DNA from: an uncultured Flavobacteriales bacterium
GTDB taxonomy: Bacteria > Bacteroidota > Bacteroidia > Flavobacteriales_F > PHOS-HE28
Length of the DNA stretch: 64,000 nt
NCBI GenBank assembly: GCA_937872175.1
Contig: CALMPI010000007.1
Span: 1 to 64,000, forward strand
Direction: 5' to 3'
Part shown: positions 29,056 through 53,272 of the stretch, in pieces
How the letters are laid out: every line of letters starts with the position of its first letter
Position numbering within the stretch: position 1 is the stretch's first letter
Program-made: the position numbers and the translations under genes
The notes under the pieces: generated by a model
Databases searched by the model: none
Seen by the model: only the letters and a program-made list of their open reading frames with translations
Told to the model about the DNA's origin: nothing

Positions 29056-29976
29056 ATGCGCACAGGACCAGAAGGAACGAGCAGGAAGGTGGTGAAGGGC
29101 GGACGCCTGACGGGTGCGCTGGCCTTCGTGATCGTGCTGCTCTTCATGCCCATCGGCCATGCGCTGATGGTGTTGAACGAAGCGGTGCTGGGGGCCTCCA
29201 AGCTGGTGGGGGCGGGCAGCCTGGGCACCCTGGGCGCGCTGCTGCTGCTGCTGGGTGTGCGCCTGAACCGGAACGCGCTGAGCGCGACCCTGCTCGGCCT
29301 GGTCGCGGGCATCCTGGTGTGGACCGGCTGGGTGGAGTTCTCCTTCGTGTGGATCGCGGAAAAACATGGGGTGGCCCCCCTGATGGACGGCGATGAGGTG
29401 GCCACCCGGCCGGAGTACCTCGTGATGGTGTCCTCCCTGGGCCTTCTGGGGTGCATGCTGCTCTTCTTCCTGTTCACCAGCACCCGCTGCACCCTGTTCC
29501 TCTGGTTCCAGCGGCAGCTGCGCGTGAACAGGCAGGCCGGTGCGCGCAGCGGGCCCGGCCCAGGGCGACCGGTGGCGCTGGTCACCTTCATCGAAACGGT
29601 GATGATCATCTGGACCTTCTACCTGCTGCTGCTGCTGGCGTACGATCCGGACCTGGCCGGCGATCGGCATCCCCTCACCTGGCTGGTGGCCTTCGGCTCC
29701 CTGGCCTGGTCGGCCTGGCTGATCGCGCGCCTGCTGCGGATCCACGCGTTCGACCACGCCGTGCGCTATGCCGTGCCCACCGTGGTGATCTTCTGGAACT
29801 TCGTGGAGGTGGCCGGCCGCTGGGGCCTCTTCAAGGAGATCTGGGTGCATCCGCTGGAGCATTGGGTGGAGAACAGCCTCATCGCGCTGGCCCTCCTGCT
29901 GTTCATGGGCCGGTATGTGCTGGACCATGCGCGCGGCCGACGGCTGCGGCCCACCGGACCCGCAGGGCCGGCGTGA
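29056..29976 (+). CDS. Eight-helix membrane protein, unknown function
   Basis: A 306-residue inner-membrane protein with about eight hydrophobic segments (near residues 16-38, 53-70, 78-101, 116-136, 176-195, 209-229, 237-256, 271-290) and a basic Arg-rich C-terminus. No family was recognised. The start ATG 29056 is chosen over the in-frame ATG at 28990 because the added 22 residues are Pro-rich and not conserved-looking. Its last about seven codons (GPAGPA, stop) fall inside the dispersed repeat starting at about 29957, so part of the tail probably came from insertion of that repeat. Confidence 0.6.
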   Translation: MRTGPEGTSRKVVKGGRLTGALAFVIVLLFMPIGHALMVLNEAVLGASKLVGAGSLGTLGALLLLLGVRLNRNALSATLLGLVAGILVWTGWVEFSFVWIAEKHGVAPLMDGDEVATRPEYLVMVSSLGLLGCMLLFFLFTSTRCTLFLWFQRQLRVNRQAGARSGPGPGRPVALVTFIETVMIIWTFYLLLLLAYDPDLAGDRHPLTWLVAFGSLAWSAWLIARLLRIHAFDHAVRYAVPTVVIFWNFVEVAGRWGLFKEIWVHPLEHWVENSLIALALLLFMGRYVLDHARGRRLRPTGPAGPA

Positions 29977-30142
29977 CGATCCTCCTCCTGATCCGGTCGG
30001 GTACAGGACGCGTGCACCCCCCCTCCTGAGCAGCGAACGCTCGCTGCTCAGGAGGGGGGGTCATGGCGTGCGGGTAGGGTCGCGATGACGGCGTGGGAAA
30101 GGGAGATCGCTTCGCCCGCGGAGCCGTGCCCGCGAAGACCAT
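29957..30142. repeat. Dispersed hairpin repeat, copy A
   Basis: About 185 bases that align, with gaps, to 53273-53572 (copy B). Shared blocks include CCCGCAGGGCC at the left edge, TGATCCGG, GTACAGGACGCGTGCA, the hairpin arm CTCCTGAGCAGCGAACGCTC, TCATGGCGTGCGGGTAG, TCGCGATGAC and ATCGCTTCGCCCGC at the right. Copy B has about 110 extra bases in the middle. It sits between a plus-strand gene end and a minus-strand gene end, and its left edge enters the 3' codons of the gene at 29056. Two copies on one 64-kb window suggest an intergenic mobile repeat of the REP or MITE sort. Boundaries are approximate; no transposase is near. Confidence 0.7.
30017..30060. terminator. Perfect 20-base hairpin in repeat copy A
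   Basis: A perfect 20-base inverted repeat (arms C7-TCCTGAGCAGCGA and its complement) with a 4-base loop ACGC. It lies between convergent genes (ends at 29976 and 30180), so it would stop transcription from both sides even without a T-tract. It is also the core of the dispersed repeat, and only one of its two arms is fully preserved in copy B, where the inner stem is 9 bases. Confidence 0.6.
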
Positions 30143-30179
30143 GCGGGAAGTTCAGCGCGGCGGCGCATCTGCGCTCCGG

Positions 30180-31295
30180 TCAGGGTTTCCGGCCGAACAT
30201 GCGTTTGAGGCGCTCCATGCCGCGGCGTTCCTGCTCTTCGGCACGATCGACCATCCACCGCAAGGGGCGCGGCGCACCGAACCGGACGCCGAGGAAGACC
30301 TGGAAGTAGTACCGGTCCTTGATCACCACGGCCACGGTGTTCTCCTGATCGTACTGCTCGCGGGACCCGACGAACTGACCACCTCCGAAGAAGCGTTCTC
30401 CATTGTAGCCCAGGGCGGCGGAAAGGTCAGCGCGGTAAAGGATGTTCCGCTGATCGGAATCCACATCCCCGGAGGGCAGGCGCGTGAGCAGGTCCGTGTG
30501 GAGGTAGCCGATGCCCGGACCGCCGCCCAGCGCCACATAGGCGTTGCGCAGAAAGACGAAGCAATGCACGTAGGTGGCGGACAACACCACCTCGATGTTG
30601 CGCGATCGCTGGCTGCTGTTCGTTCCGGTGAGGTAGGTGCGGTCGTCCAGTTCGTAGTAGTGGTAGCTGAGCAGCGGCATGAAGGTGCCCGCGCTTTTGC
30701 GCTGGCGCTCCCCCTGGCTCACCAGGGCATTGAACGACAAGCGGCGGTCCGTCCGGTAGCCGGTCTGCCCGAAGAACGAGGTGTACACCAGGTCGGGGAA
30801 CTGGATGTACGGGTCGACATCCTTTCGCCAACCGGGAATGAAGTCGCTGGTGTTGGCGAGGTAGTAGCCCTTGGTGCGGGTATAGGCCAGCACCTGCGTC
30901 AGATGGCCCGGCATCAGCGTGAAGGCATACCGGTGGTGGCGCGTGCGACCGCGGAGCGCATTGTCCGCGTTGCCCGGTAAAAAGGTGGGGGCCCATCCGG
31001 CGGAGAACGAGACCACGCGGTAGGCGAAGGAGAACTTGAGCGCGGTGCGGATGTTCGGGTCGATCGCGTAGCGCACGTCGCCCGCCTGCAGGTCGAAGAC
31101 CTCCGGATCATCGGTGAGCGCCACCCGCAGGGCCACCAGGTGGTTCATCGGTTCGAAATAGTTCTTCCAGCGGGGCGCCGGCTCCACCTGCGCGCTGTCC
31201 TTCGGCGGTTCCACGGCCTGGCCGGCCGTGTCGCCGCCACCGGCGAGCAGGATCCCGCACAGGAGGGCTCGAAGGACCGGGCTTGGCGATGGCAT
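30180..31295 (-). CDS. Outer-membrane barrel protein (DUF4421-like)
   Basis: A 371-residue exported protein with a signal peptide (to about residue 24) and alternating short beta-strands typical of an outer-membrane barrel ending near FQVFLGVRFGAPRPLRW. Motifs such as YAIDPNIRTALKFSFAYRVVSFSAGWAPTFLPGNAD (near 77-110) match what I recall of the DUF4421 family; the shorter key pieces are YRVVSFSAGWAPTFLPG. The C-terminal ~30 residues are very Arg-rich. Function unknown. It is divergent from the AI-2E exporter gene at 31354 (58-base gap). Confidence 0.65.
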   Translation of the reverse strand: MPSPSPVLRALLCGILLAGGGDTAGQAVEPPKDSAQVEPAPRWKNYFEPMNHLVALRVALTDDPEVFDLQAGDVRYAIDPNIRTALKFSFAYRVVSFSAGWAPTFLPGNADNALRGRTRHHRYAFTLMPGHLTQVLAYTRTKGYYLANTSDFIPGWRKDVDPYIQFPDLVYTSFFGQTGYRTDRRLSFNALVSQGERQRKSAGTFMPLLSYHYYELDDRTYLTGTNSSQRSRNIEVVLSATYVHCFVFLRNAYVALGGGPGIGYLHTDLLTRLPSGDVDSDQRNILYRADLSAALGYNGERFFGGGQFVGSREQYDQENTVAVVIKDRYYFQVFLGVRFGAPRPLRWMVDRAEEQERRGMERLKRMFGRKP

Positions 31296-31353
31296 GCCGG
31301 CGAAAATACCTGTCGGACAGCATGCAGGTGGCTACCTTGGCGCACAACGACCC

Positions 31354-32466
31354 ATGCGCGCACGGATCCCTCTCGAACGCTTCCTGTTCATCGTGGTGGT
31401 GTCGGCCATCCTGGTGATCACCTACCTGCTGCTGTACGCGTTGCGTGATGTGCTGCTTCCCTTCGTGGTGGCCCTCGGCATCGCCTACCTCTTCCGCCCG
31501 CTGATGCACGCCATTGAGCGCTTCGTCCGGTCGCGCGGGCTGGCCGCCCTGGCCACCACCCTGCTCGCCCTGGCCGTGATCGGCGGCATGGTGACGCTGG
31601 TGGCGGAGATCCTCGCTGCGGAATTGAGCCACCTCCAGGCACTGCTGTCCACGCACCTTCACCCGGGCGCGCTGATGCAGGACCTGGAGCGGGTGGAAAC
31701 GCGCCTGCTGGGCAGCGTGGACCCCGAGCGTGTGCGTGCGTTCCTTTCCCCGGAGCGGCTGGGCGAGGTGGGCAAAAGCCTCATGCCCGGCTTCATGCAC
31801 GGGCTTGCGGGTGTCTTCGGCGTGCTCGCCACCCTGGGCACCGTGCTCGCCGTCACCCTCTACACCTTCTTCATCCTGCTGGACCTGGAGCGCATCCTCG
31901 CGAGCGTGAAAAGCCTGTTCCCCACGCGTGCGCATGGCCTGATGCGCGATGTGGTGACCGACCTGGCCCGCGACCTCAACCTCTATTTCAAGGGGCAGTT
32001 CAAGGTGAGCCTGGCGCTGGCGTTGATCTATGCCACGGGCTTCAAGCTGATCGGCCTGCCGGTGGGCATCGGCATCGGCCTGCTGGCCGGGCTGCTGAAC
32101 ATGGTGCCCTATATGGCCCTGCTCAGCATCGTGCCCGCCACCCTGAGCGCGGCGCTGCTGGCCATGGAGACCGGATCCGCCTTCGGTGCGATCATGGCCC
32201 AGGTGGGCATCGTGTACGCGGTGGCCGTGGTGGCGGACAACATCGTGCTCACCCCGCGCATCCTGGGCAAGGCCACCGGCCTGCCGCCCGCCATCGTGTT
32301 GCTCGCCCTTTCCATCTGGGGCAGCTTGCTCGGGCTCATCGGCATGGTGCTGGCCCTGCCGCTCACCACCGTGGCCATCGCCTACTTCAAGCGCTTCGTG
32401 CTGCATGGTCCGGAGGCGGTCGCTCAGCCACCTGATATCGGTCAGGACCGCCGTGAAGGTCAGTAG
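31354..32466 (+). CDS. AI-2E (PerM/TqsA)-family transporter
   Basis: A 370-residue inner-membrane protein with eight helices. Helices 1-3 are N-terminal (residues 8-80), then a periplasmic or cytoplasmic loop with PGALMQDLERVETRLLG, then about five C-terminal helices ending in the family motif IVLLALSIWGSLLGLIGMVLALPL (near residues 312-335). The AI-2E exporter family also includes antiporters and unassigned members. ATG 31354 is preferred over an upstream in-frame ATG at 31228, whose added residues are low-complexity. A short gap leads to the barrel protein at 32492. Confidence 0.87.
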   Translation: MRARIPLERFLFIVVVSAILVITYLLLYALRDVLLPFVVALGIAYLFRPLMHAIERFVRSRGLAALATTLLALAVIGGMVTLVAEILAAELSHLQALLSTHLHPGALMQDLERVETRLLGSVDPERVRAFLSPERLGEVGKSLMPGFMHGLAGVFGVLATLGTVLAVTLYTFFILLDLERILASVKSLFPTRAHGLMRDVVTDLARDLNLYFKGQFKVSLALALIYATGFKLIGLPVGIGIGLLAGLLNMVPYMALLSIVPATLSAALLAMETGSAFGAIMAQVGIVYAVAVVADNIVLTPRILGKATGLPPAIVLLALSIWGSLLGLIGMVLALPLTTVAIAYFKRFVLHGPEAVAQPPDIGQDRREGQ

Positions 32467-32491
32467 CGAGGTTTGGGCAAAACCCGACCCT

Positions 32492-33127
32492 ATGCGCCCG
32501 ACCTTCCTTCTTTCGATCCTCTCCCTCTCCGCGCTGACCAGTTCCGCCCAGAAAATGGTCGAGCTCCGCGGTTACGGCGGCATCAACCTCATCGAGCTCA
32601 CGCACGGCGGGGCCAGCACCGTGGTCATCGACGGCCAGACCCACGACCGCAATGTGAAAGGCAACGTGGGCTACCAGGCCGGGCTCGGTGTCTCCATCGG
32701 GCACCGCTTCTACGTGCAGCCCGGTGTGTACTGGCAGACCATCAGCGCCAAGACCATCAACACCAACCAGACCACGGGGGTGAAGCTGGAGGACGAACCC
32801 TCCGTGAGCGTCATTTCCGTGCCGGTGCGCGTAGGCCTGCGGCTGCTGCCCACCATGGCCGAACGCATCGTGGACGTGCGCATCTTCGGCGGCATCACCG
32901 GCAACCATGTCCTCAGCGTGAAGGACGGCAGCGACAAGATCGACCTGGACAAGGACGACTTCAAGAACCTGTTCATGGGTGCCGACGTGGGCCTCGGAGT
33001 GGACGTGCTGTTCCTTTTCCTGGACGCCGGTTATGAGTTCGGGCTGTCGCCGATCTTCAGCGACCCGGCCGACCCCACGCGCTACAACATGTTCTTCGCC
33101 CGGCTCGGCGTGCGCATCGGCCTCTGA
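32492..33127 (+). CDS. Small outer-membrane beta-barrel protein
   Basis: A 211-residue exported protein: signal peptide (MRPTFLLSILSLSALTSSAQ), then strands alternating through VELRGYGGINLIEL, YQAGLGVSIGHRFYVQPGVYW, VISVPVRVGLRLLP, and the final FARLGVRIGL with a C-terminal aromatic/Leu end. This is the pattern of the outer-membrane beta-barrel domain family (porin-like or OMP_b-brl_2), common in Bacteroidota. No specific ligand is visible. It follows the AI-2E gene by 25 bases and ends 33 bases from the convergent MscS gene. Confidence 0.72.
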   Translation: MRPTFLLSILSLSALTSSAQKMVELRGYGGINLIELTHGGASTVVIDGQTHDRNVKGNVGYQAGLGVSIGHRFYVQPGVYWQTISAKTINTNQTTGVKLEDEPSVSVISVPVRVGLRLLPTMAERIVDVRIFGGITGNHVLSVKDGSDKIDLDKDDFKNLFMGADVGLGVDVLFLFLDAGYEFGLSPIFSDPADPTRYNMFFARLGVRIGL

Positions 33128-33160
33128 GCGGACCGACCTTCAAGCGGCCCGTGACCGGTG

Positions 33161-35539
33161 CTATCCGGCCGCGGGCCGTTCGCTTTCCCGGTTGTCCAGC
33201 CGTGCCGGATCGCGAAGGTTCCACGTGATCCCGTGCTCGCGCAGGGCATGCGCCAGGGCGGCCAGCACCGCATCGCGCTTCTCATACGGCCGGGTGATGT
33301 TGCCCACCCAGAGCAGCACCTCGAAGCGCGCCCAGTAGCGGTCCATCTCCACCAGGTGCACCTGCGGCGCGGTGAGGCCCGGTTCGGCCATGCCCTCCAG
33401 CACCTGCGCCATGGCCGCATGCGCGGCCCGCAGGTCGTTGTCCAGCGGGATGTTGATGTGGAGGTTGAGCCTTCCGCTGGGGTCGTTCATGGTCCGGTTC
33501 TCCACCAGGTCGCTCACCAGCATGGCATTGGGGACCACGAGCGTGCTGCCTGCGTAGGTGGACACGCGGGTGCTGCGCAGGCCGATGTCGCGGATGATGC
33601 CCAGCCGCCCTTGCACGAGGATCTCATCGCCCGGGCGCACGGGCCGCTCCATGGCGAGCATGATGCCTGAAACGAGGTTGTTGGCCAGTTGCTGGAAGCC
33701 GAGCCCGATGCCGAGACCGAACGCCCCCATCAACACCACCAAGCGGTCCACCGGGATGCCCGACGACCACAGCGCCAGGGCGCCCCCGGCGACCAGCAGG
33801 GCGAGGCGCACCAGCAACACCGTCCCCCCCTGCTTGCGGGCGTTCAAGCGCCCTGCATCCTCTTCGGAGAACAGGTCCTTCACCAATTCGGAGAGCACGA
33901 TGGCCAGGGCGAAACTGCCGAAGAAGGCCACCACGGCCATCCACGTGAAGCCCACGCCCAACAAGGCCCGCGGTGCCTCCAGGAACTCGCCCAGCCGCAC
34001 CCACAGCACATCCCAAAGGTCCATGCCGTTGAGCACCGCGTAGGCCCAGACGAGCAGCCCGAACAGGTTGAGCAGACCGACCAGGCGCGGTCGTGCCCGC
34101 TCCGGATCGAACCGTGCCCGTCCGGTGCGTTCCTCCAGCACTCCGGTCAGCAAGGTGAGGCCGTCCATGGCCAGCCGCACCATCAGGGCCAGGGCGATGG
34201 CGATGATGAGCCCGTCCAGGGAGACCCCGACAAGGTTGCTCCCCAGCCGGTACCAGCCCATCACGTTCAGGACCCAGCCGCCCGCCAGCATGGCGATGGA
34301 CACGCCGACGAGCATCCGGAGCCGGCGGGGATGCGGGTAGCCTCCTCGGATCAACACGTTCCGCAGGCGGAGCATGAGCGGCAGGAAAACGATGCACCCG
34401 ACCAGCAGCCAGCGCCGCATGAGGGTCGGTTCCACGAGCAGGTTGCTCACCTTCACCAGCAGCACGAGGGCCATGGCGGCCCAGAGGCGGCGGCGATCAA
34501 GCCCGGGATATTCGTGCTGCAGCAGCCAGGCGAGCAGGGGGATGGCCGCGATCAGCGCCAGGTCGTGGAACAGCTGCGGGGCGCGGACCACGGTGAAGGG
34601 CGCCACGATGGCCATGGCGAGCAGGGCCAGCGCCCCGCCATGTTCGTGGAACAGGGTGCGCCCCACGGTGTCCCGGCCCCGTTGTTGGGCGGCGATGAAC
34701 ACGGGCAGCAGCAGGAGCGCGAGCAGCAGCACACGCGATGGCAGCAACTGCCGCGGCAGGTGGTCCCACACCACGGCCACGGTGAGGAGGATGGAGCGCC
34801 CCGTGCGCGCCACCACGTCGCCGAACGGCGCATAGGGAGGATCGGCCTTCGCCCACACCGGCCCATGTCGCCGTTCGACCAGGGTCCGCTCCTCCGCCAC
34901 GATCCGGGCGGCGATCGCATCGCGCATGGTGACGGCACGCACGCTGAGGTCGAGGCCCGCATCCACCACGCGGATGATGGCGAAGGTGCGTTCGTCGCAC
35001 AATCGGACCGTGGCGTTCACCAGCGTATCCAGGATGGACCGCTCCCGGGCGTACAGCTCCGCCAGGGCGCTGTCGGCGGCGGCGGCGGCTTCGACCTCAC
35101 GGCGCATGCCGACCAGTTCGGTCCGGATGTCGGCGAGTTCGCCGGCCCTGGCCTGCAACGGAGCAATGTCGCCCTCGGCCACCCCGCGCACGCGCTCGGC
35201 GGCGGAACGGATCGCACGAAGTCCGCGCAGCATCAGGCTGCCTTCCACGCCTTGCAGCTGGCGGTGCAACCGGTCCAGCATGCGCTGCCCATCCCGCACC
35301 CCCGCACCCACGGCGGCGGTATCGGGAAGTGGCAGCGCCTGTGCGTGCAATTGCTTGGCCCGGCTGATGCGCAGGGCCAGGTGCCGCGGCTCCAGCACGT
35401 CCTCCGGGCCGGCGGCCACAGCCATCACCCCCGCGAGGAACAGCCCAAGCACCATCGCGAAGCGAAGCATCGATGGATGACGGGACCTCATGGCTGGCAC
35501 GGCGGCGCAAGGTATCGAAGCGAAGTGCGTCCGGTTCAT
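33161..35539 (-). CDS. Large mechanosensitive channel (MscS/MscK-like)
   Basis: A 792-residue membrane protein. The N-terminal region has a signal peptide or anchor and a periplasmic coiled-coil (about 60-250), followed by about eight helices. The C-terminal core (about residues 600-790) has the MscS pore and cytoplasmic domain: FGLGIGLGFQQLANNLVSG, then MERPVRPGDEILV and STYAGSTLVVPNAMLVS. The size and extra helices resemble MscK/YbdG-type channels that gate on membrane tension. The start at 35539 overlaps the upstream AsmA-like stop (ATGA); an alternative start is at 35491, where the signal-like segment is closer to the N-terminus. Confidence 0.88.
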   Translation of the reverse strand: MNRTHFASIPCAAVPAMRSRHPSMLRFAMVLGLFLAGVMAVAAGPEDVLEPRHLALRISRAKQLHAQALPLPDTAAVGAGVRDGQRMLDRLHRQLQGVEGSLMLRGLRAIRSAAERVRGVAEGDIAPLQARAGELADIRTELVGMRREVEAAAAADSALAELYARERSILDTLVNATVRLCDERTFAIIRVVDAGLDLSVRAVTMRDAIAARIVAEERTLVERRHGPVWAKADPPYAPFGDVVARTGRSILLTVAVVWDHLPRQLLPSRVLLLALLLLPVFIAAQQRGRDTVGRTLFHEHGGALALLAMAIVAPFTVVRAPQLFHDLALIAAIPLLAWLLQHEYPGLDRRRLWAAMALVLLVKVSNLLVEPTLMRRWLLVGCIVFLPLMLRLRNVLIRGGYPHPRRLRMLVGVSIAMLAGGWVLNVMGWYRLGSNLVGVSLDGLIIAIALALMVRLAMDGLTLLTGVLEERTGRARFDPERARPRLVGLLNLFGLLVWAYAVLNGMDLWDVLWVRLGEFLEAPRALLGVGFTWMAVVAFFGSFALAIVLSELVKDLFSEEDAGRLNARKQGGTVLLVRLALLVAGGALALWSSGIPVDRLVVLMGAFGLGIGLGFQQLANNLVSGIMLAMERPVRPGDEILVQGRLGIIRDIGLRSTRVSTYAGSTLVVPNAMLVSDLVENRTMNDPSGRLNLHINIPLDNDLRAAHAAMAQVLEGMAEPGLTAPQVHLVEMDRYWARFEVLLWVGNITRPYEKRDAVLAALAHALREHGITWNLRDPARLDNRESERPAAG

Positions 35540-38500
35540 GGCGCCACGTCGTGATCCAAGCGTCGCAGGAGCTCCTGTTCGGGACTATGCTTCGCCTTTC
35601 CCTTCTTCCCCGGCAGGCGCATGCTTCCAGGCAGTGCGGCGATGCTCTGCTTGTAGATGTAGTTCAGCAGGCTGCGGTCCTTGTAGCGTTCCTGGTAGAT
35701 CGCGGACGGACGCTTGCGCGCTCCCAGCACGCCGTCGGCCAGCAGCAGCGCCTCCGCGATCGAGGTCTCCAGGGCGGCGAGGGGGTCGGTGCCGTGATCG
35801 TGGCCCCGTGGAAGCACCCAGAGCCTCAGTCCCCGATGCGCCAGGTGGAGCTCGCCGATGGCCACATCGTCGTTCGCTTCGCTGGTGATCCGCAGGGTGT
35901 CCAACCGGCCCTTCACCACCTTCACCTGCGCCGCGTGCGCGAGCATCGGGTTCAGCGTGCGCAGGTCCATCGGCCCCACGTGCAGGCGGTAGCGGAAGTC
36001 GTCACGTGGCGCATCGGGAAGGAAGCCCACCTTCAGGTGAAAGCGGCCGGCATCCTCCAGGAGGCCCGTGGCCTCCATGCTCAAGGTGTCCGCTGCTGCG
36101 GCGGCGGGGGTCGCGATCCGCGTGATGTGCGCGTTCAGCGCGGTGAAGCGGATGGTGGCCGGGCCGGTGGGATGGATCTCGGTATAGGTGGCCCGCCCGC
36201 CGGTGATCCGGATGCTGTCCACCCGCAGGTGGGCCTGCAACGAATCGAGCATCGTGGGCGGCAGCGGTTTGTAGCGGAACGGAGGCCGCGGCAGGCGATG
36301 GTCGCGCAGGTCATCCAGCAGGGGGTCCACCAGCTCGACCGAGCGCACCCGGTATCGTCGTTCGCGCAGCGCGGCGTGCAGGTCGAGGCCGCGGACCTTC
36401 ACCCAGGGCACATCCAGGAGGATGGCATCCTTGCGGTACGGGCCTGCTCCAGCATGGGCACCCTGGTCGGCCAGCGGTGCGAAGTGCAGGTCGCGGATGT
36501 CGATGGATCCCTTGTCGGCATCGAGTGCGATGCGGGCCGCATCGAGCACGGTCCCCGCGCGAGCCAGACGCAGGTCCGCACCGACGGTCTCCATCCGCAG
36601 TCCGCGCAGGTCGGGCCCACCCTGACCGGCCCACTCCAGCCCGTCCAAGGTCACCCGCACGCTGTCCATGGAAGTGGCCCAGGCGCTGTCGGCGGCCGCA
36701 CCACGGAAGCCCACGGCCTCGATCCGCGATGGACCGGCGGTGACGGACAGCCCCTGTTCCGCCTGCCGCAACCAGAGCTCGCCGGCATGCATGCGGAAGG
36801 CCCCGGCGAAGGTCCCCGCACCCTCCTGGCGGAATCGCCCGTCATCCAGGTCCACCGACGCCGCATGAACGCCCCAGGCCATCCCGGCCCGAGGCGGGGA
36901 GCGATGCTGTTCGCGGGCCTTCGGAGGCGATGTGCCTTCGGCGCCGCCGGCGCTCATCGCCACGCGGGCGCCGTGCAGCCGGAGGTGGCCCAGCTCCACG
37001 ACGGACGTGGTCCGCAGCAGCTCCGGGTCGTAGCCACGGCCCACGATGCTGTCCAGGTGAAGCACCATCGCGGGTCCCGGGCCCTTCCGCTGCAGCCGCA
37101 GGCCCGCAGCGATGGAACGCGCCTCCGCCGGATCGATGTGGAACCGATCGATCGAAGCCTCCAGCCCGGCGGCCGTCCGCAACCGGAGCCGTCGGCCCGC
37201 TACACGTTCCGCATCGCGGAGATACGACGGTTCCCCGCGAAGGAACGCCTCGCGATCGGGGCGCAGTCCGATGATCCGCAGGTCCAGGGAATCGACCGCC
37301 AGCTCCACGGCCTGGCCCACATGGACCAGGAGCTTCACGTCGGAGATCGACACGGTATCGAGCCGGAACTGGGGCGGCCCTTTGCGCGGCCCGGAAGCGG
37401 GCCGGGCGTTCCCCGCGGGAAGCTCGATCGTCGCCTCGGTACGGGCCAGCTCCAGGTGCCGGGCCCGCAGTTCACCACCCTCCAGCAGCGTTGGAAGATC
37501 GAACCCGGCCAGGTCGAACATGGTGATGTTGACCTCCCCCTCGTGGAGGGTGTCGCCGCTCCACCGCAAGCCTTCGACATGCACATTGCGTTCTGGCACA
37601 CGCGCGCGGATCATCCGTGCGGTGACCTCCCCGTGCGTGGCCGGTGTGGCCAACGCAAGGTCCTCGATGTACAGCACCGCACCGTCCGCGTACAGATCGC
37701 GGTGCGGTTCGCCCGGGGCTTCCGGGCAGCGCACGCCGATCGCCCTGAACCGCAGGTTCCCCACGGAGATCCGCGTGTCCCCGCCGGAGACCGCTGCGGA
37801 ACCGTTCAGTTCCACGCGGTCCAGCACCAAGGCGGCGATGCCGGCCTGCGCCAGCAGGCGCGGAAGCGGAATGCGCGCCTTGCCCGGAGCGGGCCGTGGC
37901 CGGTGCTTCGTTCCCCGATGGCCGCGAAGCCGCGCGTCCAGGTCCAGTTCGAGCACTTCCACGGCGCCCGCCCGCACGGACCGCTGCTGCGTCCATGCCG
38001 GAATGTCGAGATCCAGCAAGCGCAGGTGCCCCATGCTCACCGGCTCCGGGAGCACCGGACTGTCGTAGTACACGCTGTCCATCCGCAGCGATCGGCTGGC
38101 GATGTCCAGGTCCACATGACCGCCAAGCACCTGCACGCTCCTCGACCGGAAGGCGAGACCGTCCATCCGCACCCGGCCGTCGGTCGGCGCATGATACCGG
38201 AATCGACCCGTCACCGTGTCCGGCCCGGCGCTGAACCCGATCACCTCGGCATCCACCCGGTCCACATGGAGTTCGAGCGTGGTATCCCCGGCCAGGTCCA
38301 GACGACCATCGCGCAGCACGAAAGTGTCCACCTGCAGATGTGGGAGCAGGGCCAGCAGGGCTGGATCGAGGCGGAGCGGCTGTTCGGGGTCGTGATGGCC
38401 GCCGTGGGGGACCTGAAAGGCGGCCTGCACCTGCGGCCGATCGACCTCGAGACGACGGAGCTCCAACGTGTCGTCCTCGCGGAGCCCTTCATGATCGAGG

Positions 38501-39327
38501 CCGTGCAGGGCCAGCCGGTCCACCCGGGCCTGCACCCCGCGCCCCTGGCCATCGGCGGAGCGGGTCGTCACCTCCAATCCATCGATGGCCAGGGAATCCC
38601 CCTGCAGGCTGATGGCGAAGTGGTCCATGCGATACGCGGACCGGCCATCCGGGGTATGGAAGCGCTGGTCGCGGAAGGCCAGGTGGAACTCCTCCAGCGG
38701 TATGTGCAGGGGATCCGCCAGGACCGCTGTATCGACCTGCAGGCCGCGCACCTCCAGTTCCACGCCGGCCAGCTCCAAGGCGCGGCCATCCGCCGCGCCC
38801 TGCACGGCGTACGTCACGGTACCGTCGCTGATCCGCAGGTCCTCCAGGCCGATGCTGTGCAGATAGCCGGCAAGCCCACCGCGCAGATCGCGCAGCATCT
38901 GCAGGAAACCCGCCTGTTTCCGGGGCGCAACGTCACCCCGATCGACGAGCGCGACCCGGGCCCCGGCGAAATGCACGTCCTCCAAACGCAGGTCGCCGGA
39001 CAGGAGGGCAAGGGGCCTGAGGCGCATGCCGAACTCGGGCACGGCCAGGGACAGCAGCATGTGCTGCCCACGGGCCACCGCCTCCGCACTGTCCGTCCGC
39101 ACCAGCAGGTCCTTCACGTCCAGCCGCCCCCGGAGGAGATGTGCGCGCACCACCAGCGCCCGCTCGTCCACCACGTGGCCGCCTTCGCTCAACGCAGCGA
39201 CCAACAGCTTCCGCGCCTGGGCGGACGACCATCGGTCGAGCGCGCCGGTGAGGACGAACAGCAGGAAGAGCAGGACACCGAGGCCGCCCGTCCACCACCA
39301 CCTGAAGCGCCTCCGCATGGCCACCAC
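35536..39327 (-). CDS. AsmA/DUF748-like giant protein
   Basis: A 1263-residue protein with one N-terminal membrane helix (residues 12-30) and a very long repetitive beta-rich periplasmic region. Most of it is made of recurring short units with strings like LRLEDVHFAGARVAL, ELEVRGLQVDTAVL and VDIASRSLRMDSVYY, as in the AsmA/TamB/YhdP/DUF748 class thought to form lipid-transfer or bridge-like rods. No catalytic motif was found. The stop overlaps the MscS start, so the two are translationally coupled. Divergent from the His-rich lipoprotein at 39401. Family by architecture; the specific subfamily is uncertain. Confidence 0.7.
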   Translation of the reverse strand: MVAMRRRFRWWWTGGLGVLLFLLFVLTGALDRWSSAQARKLLVAALSEGGHVVDERALVVRAHLLRGRLDVKDLLVRTDSAEAVARGQHMLLSLAVPEFGMRLRPLALLSGDLRLEDVHFAGARVALVDRGDVAPRKQAGFLQMLRDLRGGLAGYLHSIGLEDLRISDGTVTYAVQGAADGRALELAGVELEVRGLQVDTAVLADPLHIPLEEFHLAFRDQRFHTPDGRSAYRMDHFAISLQGDSLAIDGLEVTTRSADGQGRGVQARVDRLALHGLDHEGLREDDTLELRRLEVDRPQVQAAFQVPHGGHHDPEQPLRLDPALLALLPHLQVDTFVLRDGRLDLAGDTTLELHVDRVDAEVIGFSAGPDTVTGRFRYHAPTDGRVRMDGLAFRSRSVQVLGGHVDLDIASRSLRMDSVYYDSPVLPEPVSMGHLRLLDLDIPAWTQQRSVRAGAVEVLELDLDARLRGHRGTKHRPRPAPGKARIPLPRLLAQAGIAALVLDRVELNGSAAVSGGDTRISVGNLRFRAIGVRCPEAPGEPHRDLYADGAVLYIEDLALATPATHGEVTARMIRARVPERNVHVEGLRWSGDTLHEGEVNITMFDLAGFDLPTLLEGGELRARHLELARTEATIELPAGNARPASGPRKGPPQFRLDTVSISDVKLLVHVGQAVELAVDSLDLRIIGLRPDREAFLRGEPSYLRDAERVAGRRLRLRTAAGLEASIDRFHIDPAEARSIAAGLRLQRKGPGPAMVLHLDSIVGRGYDPELLRTTSVVELGHLRLHGARVAMSAGGAEGTSPPKAREQHRSPPRAGMAWGVHAASVDLDDGRFRQEGAGTFAGAFRMHAGELWLRQAEQGLSVTAGPSRIEAVGFRGAAADSAWATSMDSVRVTLDGLEWAGQGGPDLRGLRMETVGADLRLARAGTVLDAARIALDADKGSIDIRDLHFAPLADQGAHAGAGPYRKDAILLDVPWVKVRGLDLHAALRERRYRVRSVELVDPLLDDLRDHRLPRPPFRYKPLPPTMLDSLQAHLRVDSIRITGGRATYTEIHPTGPATIRFTALNAHITRIATPAAAAADTLSMEATGLLEDAGRFHLKVGFLPDAPRDDFRYRLHVGPMDLRTLNPMLAHAAQVKVVKGRLDTLRITSEANDDVAIGELHLAHRGLRLWVLPRGHDHGTDPLAALETSIAEALLLADGVLGARKRPSAIYQERYKDRSLLNYIYKQSIAALPGSMRLPGKKGKAKHSPEQELLRRLDHDVAP

Positions 39328-39400
39328 CGTTGCGAACGAATGTAATCACTACGACCGGGATGGATGGTTAGCTTTCGCGCTCTTCACCAAAACCAACCCC

Positions 39401-40123
39401 ATGAAGATCCAGTTCCTTGCGCTTGCGGCGCTAGCCGCCCTGAGTTCCTGCGGAGAGCCCGCACCGGCCGAACAGGTGGCCGAGCCCACGCCACCGCCCA
39501 CCGCCGAGGCCACACCCACCGAGGTGGCCCCGCTGATCATCACCGAGGACGTGTGCCTCAACATCCCCATGGACCATGCGCACCATGTGGCCGCCCACCG
39601 GAAGGAGCCGGCCCCTGTGCGCGCAGCGAACGAGCCGTACGTGACCGTGATGCACACCCATCTTGATTCGGCACTGGTGCTCCAGGAGCATGCGCCGGTG
39701 GCCCCGCGCCTCGTCTCCGCCCACATCATGCCCCCGCACAAGGAGCTGATGGACGTGAAGGAGACCGACCAGGTGACCCTGATCGCCTATGAGAAGAAAG
39801 GCGTGGAGGCCATGCACATCGTCACGGACCCGATGGATCCGAAGCATGTGCAGCATGTGGCCTTCCTGCACAAGGATCATGTGGACCAGTACAATGTGCG
39901 CCCCGGCATGAAGGGGCATGAGGCCCGCAAGCTGCGCCACGAGCTGAAACACATGGCCCGCAAAGGCCACGTCTTCCTCTACTCCGAGGAGTCGAACATC
40001 GTGTACCGCATGCGGGTGGTCGATCCCGCCAAGGCGGACTACACCATGGAGGAAGTGGAGAACCTCGAGGTGGAGGCCATCATCTGGCGGAACAAGCATC
40101 ACAAGCACCAGAAGAACGCCTGA
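39401..40123 (+). CDS. His-rich lipoprotein, unknown family
   Basis: A 240-residue lipoprotein (lipobox LSSC, Cys17) with a Pro/Thr/Glu spacer, then a domain rich in His: DHAHHVAAHRK, MHTHLD, HIMPPHKE, HVQHVAFLHKDHVDQY and a His/Lys tail NKHHKHQKNA. Histidine plus Asp/Glu density suggests metal binding on the periplasmic face, likely Zn or Ni. It precedes the L,D-transpeptidase gene by 31 bases. No named family recognised. The in-frame ATG at 39026 would add 125 codons of shadow sequence and is rejected. Confidence 0.65.
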   Translation: MKIQFLALAALAALSSCGEPAPAEQVAEPTPPPTAEATPTEVAPLIITEDVCLNIPMDHAHHVAAHRKEPAPVRAANEPYVTVMHTHLDSALVLQEHAPVAPRLVSAHIMPPHKELMDVKETDQVTLIAYEKKGVEAMHIVTDPMDPKHVQHVAFLHKDHVDQYNVRPGMKGHEARKLRHELKHMARKGHVFLYSEESNIVYRMRVVDPAKADYTMEEVENLEVEAIIWRNKHHKHQKNA

Positions 40124-40154
40124 GCCGAAGGAACGGACCAGCGACCAGCGAGCC

Positions 40155-41774
40155 ATGGCCACACCTCGATCATCCGTGCCGGGCGGTCTGCTCCTGGCGC
40201 TCCTGCTGAACGGCTGCGCCGACGTGAAGCGCAGCGAGCACACGAACGAAGCCCCTTCAACGCCCGCCCCGGTGGAGCCGTTCCGATCGGCCGAACCGGT
40301 GGCGGGCCTGGAGGTGGACAGCGCGGCCGTGGCCGCGTACATCGCCGGATGGGACCGCCGTGCAACGGACTCGGCGGGCTTCATGGACCACTATCGCCAT
40401 CGCCGCTTCGTGGGCGGTTGGGTCACGGATGACGGCCACCTCACCCATGCGGGCGAGGTCTTCCTCCACCTGACCAGCACCTCGGACAGCCTGCTGCACG
40501 GCATGCGGCTCCATCACGACACCACCGTGCAGGGCCTTGTTTCCAGGGCCGGGGAGCCGGGGCAGATCCGGCTGCCGGATCCCCTGGGCTCCGAGCTGGC
40601 GCTCACCGCGGCGTTCTTCCCCTTCGCCCAGGAACGGTACGAAGGGGTGGACGCCGACCGGACGCGCTCCCTGCACTGGTTCATCCCCACGCACAAAAAG
40701 GACGCCTCCGCGATGTTGGAGGCCCTGACAGCGGACAGCACCGACCTCGCGCCCTACGAGCCGGTGCATCCCCAGTACCAGGCCCTCCGGAGGATGCTCC
40801 GCACGTATCGCGCCCTGGAGCTCAAAGGCGGATGGGAACCGGTACCCGTTCCCAAGGCCCCCCTGCACAAGGGCGACAGCGACCCGGCCGTCAGCAGCGT
40901 GCGCAAGCGGTTGACGGCCACGGGCGACATCGCCCGGGACGACCGCAGCGCGGACTTCGACACCGGGCTCGAGGCCGGCGTGAAGCGCTATCAGGTGCGC
41001 AACGGGATGGATACCACAGGCCGGATCGACGAGGCGCTCGTGCAGGAGATGAACCGGCCCATCGGGGACCGGGTGCGGCAGATCATGCTCAACATGGAGC
41101 GGCTGCGCTGGCTGGACGGGCATGCCCCGGACGACTTCCTGCTGGTGAACATCCCGGAGTACAGGCTGCACGTGTTCGAGGGTGGCCGGGAAGTGTGGGA
41201 CATGGTGGTGGTGGTGGGCAAGCCGGCCACGCGCACGGAGGTCTTCAGCGGCAACCTGTCCACCGTGGTGCTGGCCCCCTACTGGAACATCCCGCAGAGC
41301 ATCCTGGACAAGGACGTGATCCCCGGCATGCGCCGCGACCCGAACTACGTGAAGCGGCTGCATCTGGAAGTGGTGTCCGAGCATCCGCTGCAGGTGCGGC
41401 AGAAGCCGGGTGAGTTCAATTCGCTCGGGCTGGCCAAGTTCCTGTTCCCGAACAGCTACAGCATCTACATGCACGACACGCCGAGCAAGGGCCTCTTCGA
41501 GCGCCCCGATCGCGCCTTCAGCCATGGCTGTGTGCGGCTGAAGGAGCCTGCGAAGCTGGCGGCCTACCTGCTCCGCGACCGGGCGGAATGGACGCCGGAG
41601 GCCATCCAAGCGGCCATGCACGGTGGTGCGGAACGCGCCATCCCCGTCACCCGGCCGGTGCCCGTGCATATCGTATACCTCACCGCCTGGGTGGACGGCC
41701 AGGGGCGGTTGAACTTCAGGGACGACGTGTATGGCCGCGACGCACGGCTGGCCGCCGAGCTGTTCGTGAACTAA
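40155..41774 (+). CDS. L,D-transpeptidase lipoprotein (YcbB-like)
   Basis: A 539-residue periplasmic enzyme that makes 3-3 peptidoglycan cross-links or attaches lipoproteins. It has a lipobox LLNGC (Cys21), an N-terminal scaffold domain (about 50-200), a peptidoglycan-binding-1-like domain (about 230-300, GDSDPAVSSVRKRLTATGD), and the YkuD catalytic domain (about 330-500) with the S-HGCVRL motif (His457, Gly458, Cys459, Arg461). This domain order is that of LdtD/YcbB. The upstream His-rich lipoprotein is likely in the same transcript. Confidence 0.9.
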   Translation: MATPRSSVPGGLLLALLLNGCADVKRSEHTNEAPSTPAPVEPFRSAEPVAGLEVDSAAVAAYIAGWDRRATDSAGFMDHYRHRRFVGGWVTDDGHLTHAGEVFLHLTSTSDSLLHGMRLHHDTTVQGLVSRAGEPGQIRLPDPLGSELALTAAFFPFAQERYEGVDADRTRSLHWFIPTHKKDASAMLEALTADSTDLAPYEPVHPQYQALRRMLRTYRALELKGGWEPVPVPKAPLHKGDSDPAVSSVRKRLTATGDIARDDRSADFDTGLEAGVKRYQVRNGMDTTGRIDEALVQEMNRPIGDRVRQIMLNMERLRWLDGHAPDDFLLVNIPEYRLHVFEGGREVWDMVVVVGKPATRTEVFSGNLSTVVLAPYWNIPQSILDKDVIPGMRRDPNYVKRLHLEVVSEHPLQVRQKPGEFNSLGLAKFLFPNSYSIYMHDTPSKGLFERPDRAFSHGCVRLKEPAKLAAYLLRDRAEWTPEAIQAAMHGGAERAIPVTRPVPVHIVYLTAWVDGQGRLNFRDDVYGRDARLAAELFVN

Positions 41775-41780
41775 GCCATT

Positions 41781-41833
41781 CCGAAAAAGGAGCGGGGCGG
41801 TGTTCGACGAACACCGCCCCGCTCCTTTTTCGG
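41781..41833. terminator. Bidirectional intrinsic terminator
   Basis: A long perfect dyad (26 bases per arm, CCGAAAAAGGAGCGGGGCGG start, loop essentially GAC) between convergent genes ending at 41774 and 41841. The arms end in AAAAA and TTTTT, which provide U-tracts in both directions. This is a textbook two-way rho-independent terminator. Confidence 0.9.
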
Positions 41834-41840
41834 CCGGCGA

Positions 41841-43190
41841 CTATCGCCAGTACTTCACCGTGAACTCGACACGGCGGTTCTTGGCACGACCCTGCTTGGT
41901 CGCGTTGTCAGCGATGGGCTTGGTCTCCCCAAGTCCCTCGGACATGATCCGGGCATGTTCGATCCCTTTGTCCTCGAGGTACTTCTCCACCGCGGCCGCC
42001 CGTTGCTTGCTCAAGTCCAGGTTGAAGTTGTCGTCGCCCACATTGTCCGTATGACCGGCGATGTCGAGGAGATAGTCGGGGTTCTCTTTCATCGCCGCGA
42101 CCACCTCGTCCAGGATGGGATAGCTCTTCTTCTTGATCGTGGCTTTTCCGGTCTCGAACTGGATCCCGTACATGGCCCGCTCGAACAACGTCTTCACGAT
42201 GGGCTTGGGCTCCGGGCAACCCTGGAGCGCTGGAACACCGGCCACCATCGGGCAGCGGTCCACGTTATCGGCGATCCGGTCACCATCCGTATCCGGGCAG
42301 CCCTTATCCGCGATGGGGCCCGCCTTGTCCGGGCAGGCATCCTCCTTGTCGGCAAGGCCGTCGCCATCCCGGTCCGGGCAGCCTTTCAGCGCCTTGGGAC
42401 CGGCCTCCTTCGGGCAGGCATCCTCCCGGTCCACCAAGCCGTCACCGTCAGTGTCCGGAACAAGCTCCACGCTCACCAGGTCAACGTAGTAGTACGCGTG
42501 CTGATTGTCGGGTCCGCTGATGATGTCGACCTTGCGCATCCCGGCGGCGGGGAAGGCCCCCACGGTGATGAAACGCTCGCCTCCGGCCGCGATCATCGAC
42601 CCCCTCACCTGCACCCACTTCCCACTGTTCTGAAGCACCTGACCCTCATGGATCTGAGGCTTCTCATCCAGGAAGCGGTTATTCGCATGTTTTACCTGTT
42701 CCTTGGTGAGCAAGGCACCGAGGCCGCTCACCGCCCGATCGCTGGAGGACGCGAGATGGACCCAGAAGCTGACGTCGTAGAGCTTGCCCGCCTCCAAGGC
42801 CGCGCTCAGCGGGGCCTGTACGTACTCGGCATACTTGTCCCACAGGTCCTTGCTCTCGTTCACCGGACCTCGTTTCCGGGCCACCCAGTGCGCGTTCTCC
42901 TGGTTGTAGGCGATGAAACCCGCGTAGTGATTCCCTTCATGCGGCGCAGCCGTGCCTAGGAAGTTGGTCGGGATGCCCACGTTCTTGGCCGTGCCATCCG
43001 GACTGAACAGGTCCGCCGTGCCAAGATTGGCGTTGGACCAGTCCGGTGCGTGGGAGAGCTGATCCCAGGTGACCACTTTCTTGGTGATGTTCTCGAAGCC
43101 TGGGTTCACCACCAGGTTCTGGCCTACTTGTGCATGCACAAGTAGGCCCATTAGACCGGCCCAGCCGGTCAACATTGTCCTTACCTCCAT
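41841..43190 (-). CDS. OmpA-family protein with thrombospondin type 3 repeats
   Basis: A 449-residue exported protein: signal peptide to about residue 21 (HAQ), an N-terminal carbohydrate-binding-like jelly-roll domain (about 25-240), three TSP type-3 calcium-binding repeats at about 245-325 (DTDGDGLVDREDACP, DRDGDGLADKEDACP, DTDGDRIADNVDRCP), and a C-terminal OmpA peptidoglycan-binding domain with the IAGHTDNVGDD motif near 395. It anchors the outer membrane to peptidoglycan. Similar proteins act in gliding or surface attachment. An alternative Met lies five codons in. Confidence 0.9.
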   Translation of the reverse strand: MEVRTMLTGWAGLMGLLVHAQVGQNLVVNPGFENITKKVVTWDQLSHAPDWSNANLGTADLFSPDGTAKNVGIPTNFLGTAAPHEGNHYAGFIAYNQENAHWVARKRGPVNESKDLWDKYAEYVQAPLSAALEAGKLYDVSFWVHLASSSDRAVSGLGALLTKEQVKHANNRFLDEKPQIHEGQVLQNSGKWVQVRGSMIAAGGERFITVGAFPAAGMRKVDIISGPDNQHAYYYVDLVSVELVPDTDGDGLVDREDACPKEAGPKALKGCPDRDGDGLADKEDACPDKAGPIADKGCPDTDGDRIADNVDRCPMVAGVPALQGCPEPKPIVKTLFERAMYGIQFETGKATIKKKSYPILDEVVAAMKENPDYLLDIAGHTDNVGDDNFNLDLSKQRAAAVEKYLEDKGIEHARIMSEGLGETKPIADNATKQGRAKNRRVEFTVKYWR

Positions 43191-43261
43191 GTCGTTCTGG
43201 TTTTGGTTAAGTGAAGCTGCGCATGCGGTCCGGATGCGGACTTGACATTTGTCATAACAAC

Positions 43262-43294
43262 GAACGACCCTGAGGTTCTCCCCCAGGGTCGTTC
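43262..43294. terminator. Hairpin after lipoprotein gene
   Basis: An 11-base perfect stem (GAACGACCCTG / CAGGGTCGTTC) with an 11-base loop follows the minus-strand lipoprotein stop (43314) and precedes the OmpA promoter. On the minus strand the run after the stem is GTTGTT, so the U-tract is weak; a moderately confident terminator. Confidence 0.5.
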
Positions 43295-43313
43295 ATCACG
43301 ATGGCCAAACCGG

Positions 43314-44150
43314 TCACATCATCTTGTCCTCGTCCACCCGGCCCATCAACTGGTAGTACTTCAGGATGTTCGCAAAGGCCTCGCGCTCCACATCGGTGAT
43401 CTTCCGCGTGTAGGTCTCCTTGGTGCCCACGAAGGAGATCTCCGCGTCGGGCGATCCGATGATCTCGCGGATCACGCGAAGGTCCTCCAAGGAAGGCGGG
43501 GTATCGTTCCACTCTGTGACCGTGAGATCGCCGGCCTTGCTGAACATGAGCGTGGGGTCCGGGTGCCGCACGAAATCGACGCGGCCGGAACGCAGCACGA
43601 AGGAGTTGATGTACAGCCAGTGGTTGCCGGCGTATTGGGTGTGCATGCGGAGCCAGGGCGCACCCGTCGCCTTGTGACCGATGTAGAGGTAGAAGGCCGT
43701 GGTATCCAGCCGGCGCGCTACGCGGCGGTCGTAGTACCAGGTGATGCCGTCGGCTTCATCCTTCACCACCTCGATGTGCTCGTTGAGGTCGGTCTTGGCC
43801 ACGGTCTCCGTGGAGGTCGTGGTCATGCGCTTCTCCAGGTCGGCGGCCTTCTTGGCGTGCTCGCCGCCATGGGCCTTGGCCTTTTCGATGTGGGGCGCCG
43901 CCTTGCTGTGCTCGCCGCGCTCCACGTGGTACTCGGCCAGCACCAAGGCCTGCGGGGCCATGCAGGTCTCCAGCAAGTGCGACACGTAGGCGAGCTCGTT
44001 GTGGGTGCGCTTGTTCTCACGCTCCAGGCTGTCGACCATGGCCTGCGGCACGTAGCCGGCATGATCCGGAGCGGCGGCCTGGGGGCTGGAACAGCCAACA
44101 GCACCCAGCAAACAGGTGCCCAAGGCGATCAAGGGGAAGGTGTGTCTCAT
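43314..44150 (-). CDS. Uncharacterised lipoprotein
   Basis: A 278-residue lipoprotein (lipobox GAVGC, Cys20). The N-terminal half (about 25-125) is helical, charged and TPR-like or coiled (YHVERGEHSKAAPHIEKAKAH), and the C-terminal half is beta-rich with WYYDRRVARRLDTTAFYLYIGHKATG and a DVEREAFANILKYY helix. No family recognised. It lies 63 bases downstream of tamL on the same strand and is probably co-transcribed, which suggests a role in outer-membrane biogenesis, though this is only context. Confidence 0.6.
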   Translation of the reverse strand: MRHTFPLIALGTCLLGAVGCSSPQAAAPDHAGYVPQAMVDSLERENKRTHNELAYVSHLLETCMAPQALVLAEYHVERGEHSKAAPHIEKAKAHGGEHAKKAADLEKRMTTTSTETVAKTDLNEHIEVVKDEADGITWYYDRRVARRLDTTAFYLYIGHKATGAPWLRMHTQYAGNHWLYINSFVLRSGRVDFVRHPDPTLMFSKAGDLTVTEWNDTPPSLEDLRVIREIIGSPDAEISFVGTKETYTRKITDVEREAFANILKYYQLMGRVDEDKMM

Positions 44151-44213
44151 GGGTTCTAAAGGTGCCCGAATGTAATCCGCCCGACCCGATCGGCAATTGA
44201 CACCGATCGACGC

Positions 44214-51577: not shown

Positions 51578-51655
51578 GCGCTGCGAACGCCCAAAGTAGG
51601 CAGGTCCATGTTCGCGGCCGTGTGACGAAGCTTAGGGTTTCCGTTACCTTTCGAC

Positions 51656-52300
51656 ATGGCCACGGCACCGACCGCCTTCAGATGCATCGTTGGTGTGCTC
51701 GGCCTCGCCGCCTGTGGAACCGGGTCTTCCTCCCCCGAGGCAACCAACCGTCCCGCTCCCGTCTCGGTGCAACGGCCGACCGCGGAACCCGTTCATCTGG
51801 CGCAACGCGACACGACCGCGCTGCCGGACGGGTCGCCAGTGCTGCCGACCAGCGATGACCAGGTGCTGGCGGACTCCACGGCCGCCTACCTCCTTCGCAG
51901 CCTGCGGGACGATCTGCCCGCAATGAGCGCGACGGACCGGCGCTTCCAAGTGCTTCCGGTGGACCTGAACGACGATGGAAGGCCCGAGCGCTTCATCCGG
52001 TTCATGTCCCCCTGGTTCTGCGGCTCGGGTGGATGCACCCTGCTCCTGCTCGACGACCAGTGGACCATCCTCACCCGGTTCACGGTGACGGATCCCCCGC
52101 TGTTCGCGACCAGCACGCGCACCGATGGATGGCGTGACCTCATGGTCTCCAACGGGGGCCGGTGGAGGATCCTGCACCATGGGGCGGATGGCTACCCGTC
52201 AAACCCGAGCGTTGTGCCCCCCACGGATCTCGCCCCATCCGGCCACGACCTGCTCATCTTTCACGACACCTTCGCGCCCTGTCGCACCTGGACCTATTGA
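51656..52300 (+). CDS. Uncharacterised lipoprotein
   Basis: A 214-residue lipoprotein (lipobox LAAC, Cys20) with a low-complexity spacer, then a folded domain containing VDLNDDGRPERFIRF, an FG-GAP/integrin-like calcium strand, then GSGGCTLLLLDDQW. A pair of Cys (near 123 and 128) may form a disulfide. Proteins with this dGRPE pattern and GCTL strand occur widely in Bacteroidota and Proteobacteria; no function is known. Divergent from tamB across a 78-base gap and convergent with the gene at 52310. Confidence 0.65.
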   Translation: MATAPTAFRCIVGVLGLAACGTGSSSPEATNRPAPVSVQRPTAEPVHLAQRDTTALPDGSPVLPTSDDQVLADSTAAYLLRSLRDDLPAMSATDRRFQVLPVDLNDDGRPERFIRFMSPWFCGSGGCTLLLLDDQWTILTRFTVTDPPLFATSTRTDGWRDLMVSNGGRWRILHHGADGYPSNPSVVPPTDLAPSGHDLLIFHDTFAPCRTWTY

Positions 52301-52309
52301 GCGCCGTGC

Positions 52310-53140
52310 TCAAGGCTTGATGTACAACGGCGAGCGCTTCCACAGGTAGCTCAGCGTCACCTTATAGGCGTCGCTCGTGTTCCAGAACGAGGTGCGTTCC
52401 TTGTCGTAGAGCCGGTTGCCGTCCCGGTCCATCAATGTCATGGTGATCGAGGTCTCGTAGTTCACCGTGGTGGTGGAGTTGCCGGTCTGCACGTTCCAAA
52501 TGTTCGTCTTCGTGTCCGACTTTTCCCTGATACCCGTGTAGCCTCCCTTGGTGGTATTGGTCGAGGTCCCCTTTGTGTTGCGGGCCACCACGCCCATCAC
52601 CACTTTTTCCACGCCCAGGATCGAGCACAGTTCATCGGAGAGGTGGTCGCGTACCTCATCCAGTGGGATGCCGTGCTTCAGGAGCAGCGCGTTGGTCTTC
52701 ATGGGATCCTGGTACACGTTGCCGCTCGGCGCGCTGTTGAACAGCCGGAAGCACTCGTCCTGGATCTGCCGCGCCAACTCGGGGTTCGGGGCCGGGCTGG
52801 CGTCCGAGATGAAGCGGAACGGCAGGATCGCCACGGAATTGGCGGCAGCCTTATCAGAGCGAACCGGGCTCATCGCCGACGCACCGCCCTCGGTGCTCTG
52901 CATCGCGTTGAAGACCTCCTGCCGACCGCTGGCGAAGTCGATCTTGAAGATCTCGTCACGCTTGTAGCTGTACTCCACCACCTCGTCCTCATGCACGAAA
53001 CCGATCCCCGCCTCCGTCACTTTCGTCACCTTGCCCCGGTGCTCGGTGCCGTTGAGCATGTGCACGATGTCCACCTTTCCCGATTGTGCGTGGGCGAACA
53101 GCGGCAACAGGGCAAGCAGGAGGGGGAGAAGGATGCGCAT
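52310..53140 (-). CDS. Exported protein, CsgG/LpoB-like architecture
   Basis: A 276-residue exported protein: signal peptide (MRILLPLLLALLPLFAHAQ), a small beta domain (about 22-70), then a domain opening SVAILPFRFISD near residue 100 with a long helix ELARQIQDECFRLF. That opening resembles the LpoB/CsgG-type fold that begins with a 'vAVlPF' strand and an N-terminal helix. The C-terminal half has ordered strands NIWNVQTGNSTTTVNYETSITMTLMD. A periplasmic or outer-membrane accessory role is likely. The ATG at 53140 is taken; the longer frame upstream (to 54187) crosses the repeat and is shadow sequence. Confidence 0.6.
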   Translation of the reverse strand: MRILLPLLLALLPLFAHAQSGKVDIVHMLNGTEHRGKVTKVTEAGIGFVHEDEVVEYSYKRDEIFKIDFASGRQEVFNAMQSTEGGASAMSPVRSDKAAANSVAILPFRFISDASPAPNPELARQIQDECFRLFNSAPSGNVYQDPMKTNALLLKHGIPLDEVRDHLSDELCSILGVEKVVMGVVARNTKGTSTNTTKGGYTGIREKSDTKTNIWNVQTGNSTTTVNYETSITMTLMDRDGNRLYDKERTSFWNTSDAYKVTLSYLWKRSPLYIKP

Positions 53141-53272
53141 GGAGGGGGTTATTGGGGCGGTAAAACTATGCAGGCCCCGGCAGCCTTGTATGACGATCGC
53201 CACCCCATGGACCATCATCGCGCACCGCCCTAAGGGATGAGTGGCGCTCTCCCCTGACGGTCCTCGGGAGAC

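Follow-up and report, generated by a model that had tools for sequence, protein, structure and literature searches.

The window analysed here, a stretch of 64,000 nucleotides from an uncultured Flavobacteriales bacterium, carries two copies, A and B, of a palindromic repeat, the first of which runs into the 3' end of a protein-coding gene; this raises the question of what kind of element the repeat is and what could have moved it. The explanation that we consider probable is a non-autonomous mobile element of about 165 nt, present in full as copy B and in collapsed form as copy A, which is moved in trans by a stand-alone DUF559 nuclease found in relatives and to which a CGTC-REP-like repeat is fused.

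The initial annotation had described a dispersed hairpin repeat with a perfect 20-base stem and a tetraloop, and both are real. The arms of copy A (30017-30036 and 30041-30060) are perfectly complementary over 20 bp and enclose the loop ACGC (30037-30040), the outer pattern CCCCTCCTG-N20-CAGGAGGGG has one match in the window against 0.00 in 100 shuffles, and the fold of the region has a z value of -4.2 relative to dinucleotide shuffles. No Rfam family matched the window at gathering thresholds. The hairpin of copy A lies in an intergenic region between convergent genes. It had been proposed to work as a terminator as well; nevertheless, the stem is followed by no T-tract on either strand and 0 intrinsic-terminator sites were found in 29700-30400, so that it is not an ordinary intrinsic terminator.

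Both copies had been reported previously, but the difference in their architecture, as well as the link to a nuclease, had been missed. The two are 96% alike over the left 49 nt and 83% alike over the right 105 nt, and copy B is longer by 111 nt because the single hairpin of copy A is represented in it by two hairpins with a core between them (Table 1). In copy A, the left-end arm and tip are joined to the right-end outer arm and right flank, and it is thus composed of parts from both ends; as judged from this arrangement, it looks like a collapsed form of the two-hairpin element. The element itself is 145-190 nt in length, with inverted hairpin ends and no gene inside. The core of copy B occupies the place at which the coding form found in other genomes carries a DUF559 gene.

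Table 1. Features of the two repeat copies and of the region between them (positions in the window).
Feature	Position	Strand	Description
Membrane-protein-like gene	29056..29976	+	Last codons G-P-A-G-P-A and stop are repeat sequence
Copy A, left part	29954..30016	+	CGTC-REP-like arm (CCGGACCCGCAGGGCCGGCGTGACGATC) and linker GTACAGGACGCGTGCA, both common to other copies
Copy A, hairpin	30017..30060	+	Single; left-end tip AGCAGCGA/TCGCTGCT closed by two outer-type arms (apparent collapsed form)
Copy A, right part	30061..30142	+	TCATGGCGTGCGGGTAG, then CGTC-REP-like arm (GTCGCGATGACG ... GATCGCTTCGCCCGC)
Block between copies A and B	30061..53332	.	Absent between orthologues of the genes at 29056 and 53584 in the nearest genome
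Copy B, whole (complete form)	53272-53563		Two hairpins around a 61-nt core
Copy B, left flank	53272..53332	+	Homologous to left part of copy A
Copy B, left-end hairpin	53333..53376	+	CCCCTCCTG-tip-CCGCACAAGGAGGGG
Copy B, core between hairpins	53377..53437	+	GGGGTGGTTTCC ... GAGTTGAAACCTCCCCC
Copy B, right-end hairpin	53438..53481	+	CCCCTCCTTGCACGG-CGCGTGGAGCGATCCACGCG-CAGGAGGGG
Copy B, right flank	53482..53563	+	Homologous to right part of copy A

The claim that the repeat supplies the final codons of the gene at 29056 stands, although these codons do not derive from the hairpin element but from a second repeat family, CGTCATCGCGAG ... GCGATCTCC, which is fused to it. The stretch 29954-29981, which encodes the terminal residues and the stop codon, matches the other copies, where the corresponding sequence is CCGGTCCCGCAGGGCC(A/G)GCG(C/T)GGCGATC-like. 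The pattern CGTCATCGCGAG...GCGATC is seen in relatives as well as in the window's genome, with the CGTC tag degraded at copy A. The gene has no match in Pfam; its orthologue in the closest genome (G025; 85% amino-acid identity) ends differently and without the repeat (...STGSEAAILEV stop), and the repeat was also absent from all other orthologue stretches examined, so that the GPAGPA end was not encountered apart from it. Just upstream of the gene lies the second unit (28503-28802) of a 300-nt direct repeat of 85% identity, the first unit of which is at 771-1070, both being inside transporter-like genes.

A 23.6-kb block has copy A at one end and copy B at the other. In G025 the orthologue of the gene at 29056 is followed by 240 nt of unrelated sequence and then by the region starting at window position 53595 (L114 3360-4657 corresponds to window 28642-29934 and L114 4898-6480 to window 53595-55191); since this genome is an 83% complete draft in which part of the 53584 gene is present a second time close by, a mis-assembly is possible.

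As the initial annotation had anticipated, the repeat recurs throughout the genome. About 15 full two-hairpin copies and additional fragments are present, and BLAST of the whole genome returned 62 pieces for copy A and 30 for the two-hairpin form. Their neighbours are unrelated genes, tandem copies exist, both orientations are represented and some copies coincide with contig breaks, several of the full ones being cut at contig ends. The distribution of the element in the genus is patchy, with presence in seven of 58 genomes including that of the window. In an alignment of 23 full copies, 98% of the stem cells are paired, five pairs are changed on both sides and the hairpin covariation score is 0.087, compared with 0.035 for shuffled and no more than 0.021 for slid alignments; in G026, moreover, the left tip is an entirely different sequence, TCCGGCGGA, with the same pairing. 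It is therefore structure rather than sequence that is conserved at the tips. Copies from several genomes (L009, L020, L116, L121, L124) have the hairpin GTCCGCCATAGCGAAGCGACGGCGGAC inserted at one fixed place in the core, and many lie just past the 3' ends of genes sharing a common repeated C-terminal domain, followed by a GGCCGC hairpin (L027, L029, L036, L041, L042, L046, L124, L125).

Target-site duplications, which the initial annotation had suggested as a check, did not exceed chance in the window's genus (one of 55 flank pairs, compared with 2.0 in shuffles). At one locus of G026 the repeats are missing from G023, where the whole intergenic stretch is unrelated, so that no clean junction can be read, and for the clean DUF559 element of G021 the relatives are too divergent for the insertion to be read by comparison.

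Orthologous sites in Azospirillum offer a more direct view of change within such elements. On the megaplasmids of this genus a DUF559 gene adjoins prfA with a two-hairpin element upstream, and further copies are present on other replicons. Among the named strains compared, the racemase/FAD locus contains two hairpins in four strains and one in MTCC4038, the ABC/ADH locus displays the same double versus single difference, and at a glycosyltransferase locus the element is in the opposite orientation in Sp7; in the outgroup A. ramasamyi the racemase and FAD genes are 14 bp apart with no element between them. The change between double and single is the same as that which distinguishes copy A from copy B. 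The earlier suggestion of mobility is thus strengthened by the many copies, their patchy presence in the genus and this structural polymorphism, and the element is probably mobile.

A search with the inner-arm and core pattern retrieved related two-hairpin elements from Bacteroidota, Balneolaceae, Armatimonadota, Uhrbacteria, Thiomargarita, cyanobacteria and others, and the general form CCCCTCCTT-AAGGAGGGG-GGGGTGGTT is present in many phyla. Two full elements from Balneolaceae (L170 and L200) carry a DUF559 gene between inward-facing hairpins; the open reading frame after the element in the latter (L200:1410-2597) likewise has codons that come from the repeat, within which it starts (MMSYEGTTPGPSLERRGG...). 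Three genomes of the window's genus combine DUF559 genes with hairpins of the same family as copies A and B (family 1): the hairpins are on both sides of the gene in G025:C210 and in G026:C65, and in G005 they are next to it. The gene of G025:C210 is on the minus strand (L175:383-760), and its protein has the putative catalytic motif D...ExD. Some of the genes in these three genomes face a hairpin from its outer side, and these loci have therefore been rearranged or the gene adjoins the element rather than lying inside it.

The association was also assessed without the use of the repeat sequence, from the best inverted match between the 300 nt before and the 300 nt after a gene, with a cut-off of z above 4 relative to dinucleotide shuffles. 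Inverted flanks were detected at 22 of the 32 stand-alone DUF559 genes of the class and at 10/16 in an independent phylum sample; for pooled Bacteroidota loci with full flanks the figures were 30/46, compared with 0/90 positions shifted by 850 nt (p = 8e-19). An unrelated control gene gave 0/16 and long DUF559 proteins 3/14, while one third of the stand-alone genes have no inverted flanks. The repeats on the two sides vary in sequence from genome to genome and share one design. The bracketing of this small nuclease gene by paired hairpins, in relatives and in many other bacteria, suggests a transposase-free kind of mobile element. There is good support for viewing the window's repeat as a dispersed element with hairpin ends, of the type by which DUF559 genes are bracketed. 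The nuclease of the relatives matches PF04480 with an E value of 2e-29 (101.9 bits; curated cut-off 20.6), and a predicted model of the G025 protein, built from four sequences with a mean pLDDT of 73, has as its best matches the DUF559 structure 3hrl and the catalytic domain of I-Bth0305I (3r3p), followed by Vsr (1cw0); in its modelled fold the protein thus resembles this homing endonuclease and Vsr. I-Bth0305I is intron-encoded, and its PDB entry names a mobile intron protein, whereas the DUF559 gene lies between hairpin repeats. PF04480 has no match in the window's own genome, and any mobilizer must therefore have been lost or be hidden in assembly gaps.

In its CGTC-AT... stem and its tail the flanking repeat resembles the published CGTC-tagged REPs, a group stated to lack a dedicated transposase (Di Nocera 2013, PMC3733652); in relatives, on the other hand, such repeats surround GIY-YIG nuclease genes. 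CGTC-type palindromes lie beside seven of the 34 small GIY-YIG genes of the class under a strict test, compared with one of 103 control genes, three more GIY-YIG genes are inside arrays of the CGTC-type family (L354, L370 and L372), and inverted flanks are present at 17/30 small GIY-YIG genes. The one small GIY-YIG gene of the window's genome (G000:C25:8257-8481, L368) has a third palindrome family in its flanks (CGTCATCCCGGAAAGCGGG ... ATCCGGGATCTCC).

Among known systems, REP elements and their RAYT transposases, which form REPtrons and TIRtrons (Di Nocera 2013, PMC3733652), are similar in consisting of short intergenic palindromes that occur as singles, pairs and clusters, sometimes within genes, and that bracket a small gene; they differ in that the bracketed enzyme is an HUH tyrosine transposase rather than a Vsr/homing-type PD-(D/E)XK nuclease and in their GTAG tag, which was not seen here. 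PATEs and IS200/IS605 share a hairpin at each end and the lack of target-site duplication, but no matching Y1 transposase was found beside the window's repeat. Four Y1-transposase-like genes are present in the window's genome (G000 C4:6256, C17:48381, C41:46195 and C17:120773; L137, L144, L148 and L151), each with its own, other palindromic repeats in its flanks, and the family-1 repeat was beside none of 24 Y1 loci from eight genomes; Y1/RAYT transposases were rejected as movers, as their loci carry other repeats. For the hupL MITE of Ca. Thiomargarita nelsonii an origin from an element with a PD-(D/E)XK nuclease has been proposed (PMC4853749), although that nuclease is of the PD-(D/E)XK_2 (YhgA) type and the MITE ends have 10-bp direct repeats, in contrast to the DUF559 type (in relatives) and the hairpin ends without direct repeats of the present element. 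The latter has the terminal inverted repeats, short length and non-coding nature of a MITE, with no target-site duplication, and in relatives that share its ends the enzyme is a DUF559 nuclease and not a transposase; no RAYT gene flanked by it is among the 24 Y1 loci. It behaves like a REP/RAYT or MITE system, yet it fails the defining tests of both, since there is neither a RAYT nor a target duplication, and it is likely to be a MITE/REP-like element whose partner is a homing-type nuclease in place of a transposase. No DUF559 element is described in the open-access journal literature searched.

We infer that the nuclease drives the movement of the repeat, a reading that is weakened by the absence of DUF559 from the window's genome. 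The element has a hairpin at each end, each with an inverted G/C-rich block inside, and in coding relatives a stand-alone gene for the Vsr/homing-endonuclease-like PD-(D/E)XK nuclease lies between such ends. Acting in trans, the nuclease would cut either targets or the DNA in or close to the hairpin ends, and the segment bounded by the hairpins would be copied to a new place during repair, comparable to the dependence of REPs on RAYT but with no transposase. Two-ended copies could later give rise to single perfect hairpins such as copy A through deletion or template switching between the ends. The CGTC-REP-like repeat, with a GIY-YIG nuclease as its probable partner, is fused to the element here, and from this composite the gene at 29056 received its new 3' end.

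Other explanations account for part of these observations. Another enzyme, for example a Y1/RAYT transposase, might spread the repeats, the DUF559 and GIY-YIG genes being passengers in hairpin-rich landing sites; this would agree with a genome that has repeats and Y1-transposase-like genes and no DUF559, but it is unlikely given that those Y1 genes are flanked by other palindromes, that family 1 is missing from the Y1 loci sampled and that the inverted repeats on either side of DUF559 genes differ between genomes and yet follow one design. Still less probable is a conserved regulator of transcripts, either a terminator or an mRNA stabilizer, spread by homologous recombination and duplication alone: the missing T-tracts, the varied settings of the copies (unrelated neighbouring genes, tandem arrangement, either orientation, contig breaks) and the in-place inversion in Azospirillum all argue against it, in spite of the very stable structure, the intergenic position between convergent genes at copy A and the several copies located after the 3' ends of repeated genes.

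The direction of change could also be reversed, with copy A as an ancestral single hairpin from which the two-hairpin elements arose. Single-hairpin units do exist elsewhere, as in G021, where those of another DUF559 repeat family are single-ended and scattered singly (L412-L415); on the other hand, copy A holds parts of both ends, a second single-hairpin copy on contig C36 has a tip that is a left/right chimera, and two Azospirillum loci are single in one strain and double in others, which makes such an origin improbable.

Beyond this locus, it is conceivable, if more doubtful than the nuclease-driven reading of the window's own repeat, that two kinds of stand-alone nuclease, Vsr-like (DUF559) and GIY-YIG, each move a class of hairpin-ended mobile elements of their own without a transposase, and that much of what is seen as dispersed palindromes in Bacteroidota and other phyla, CGTC REPs included, consists of such elements. 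Palindromic repeats that abound in many bacterial phyla and have had no known mover thereby gain a candidate enzyme and origin, and the question of what moves CGTC REPs becomes directly testable. Such repeats re-model the ends of genes and sit at breakpoints of gene order.
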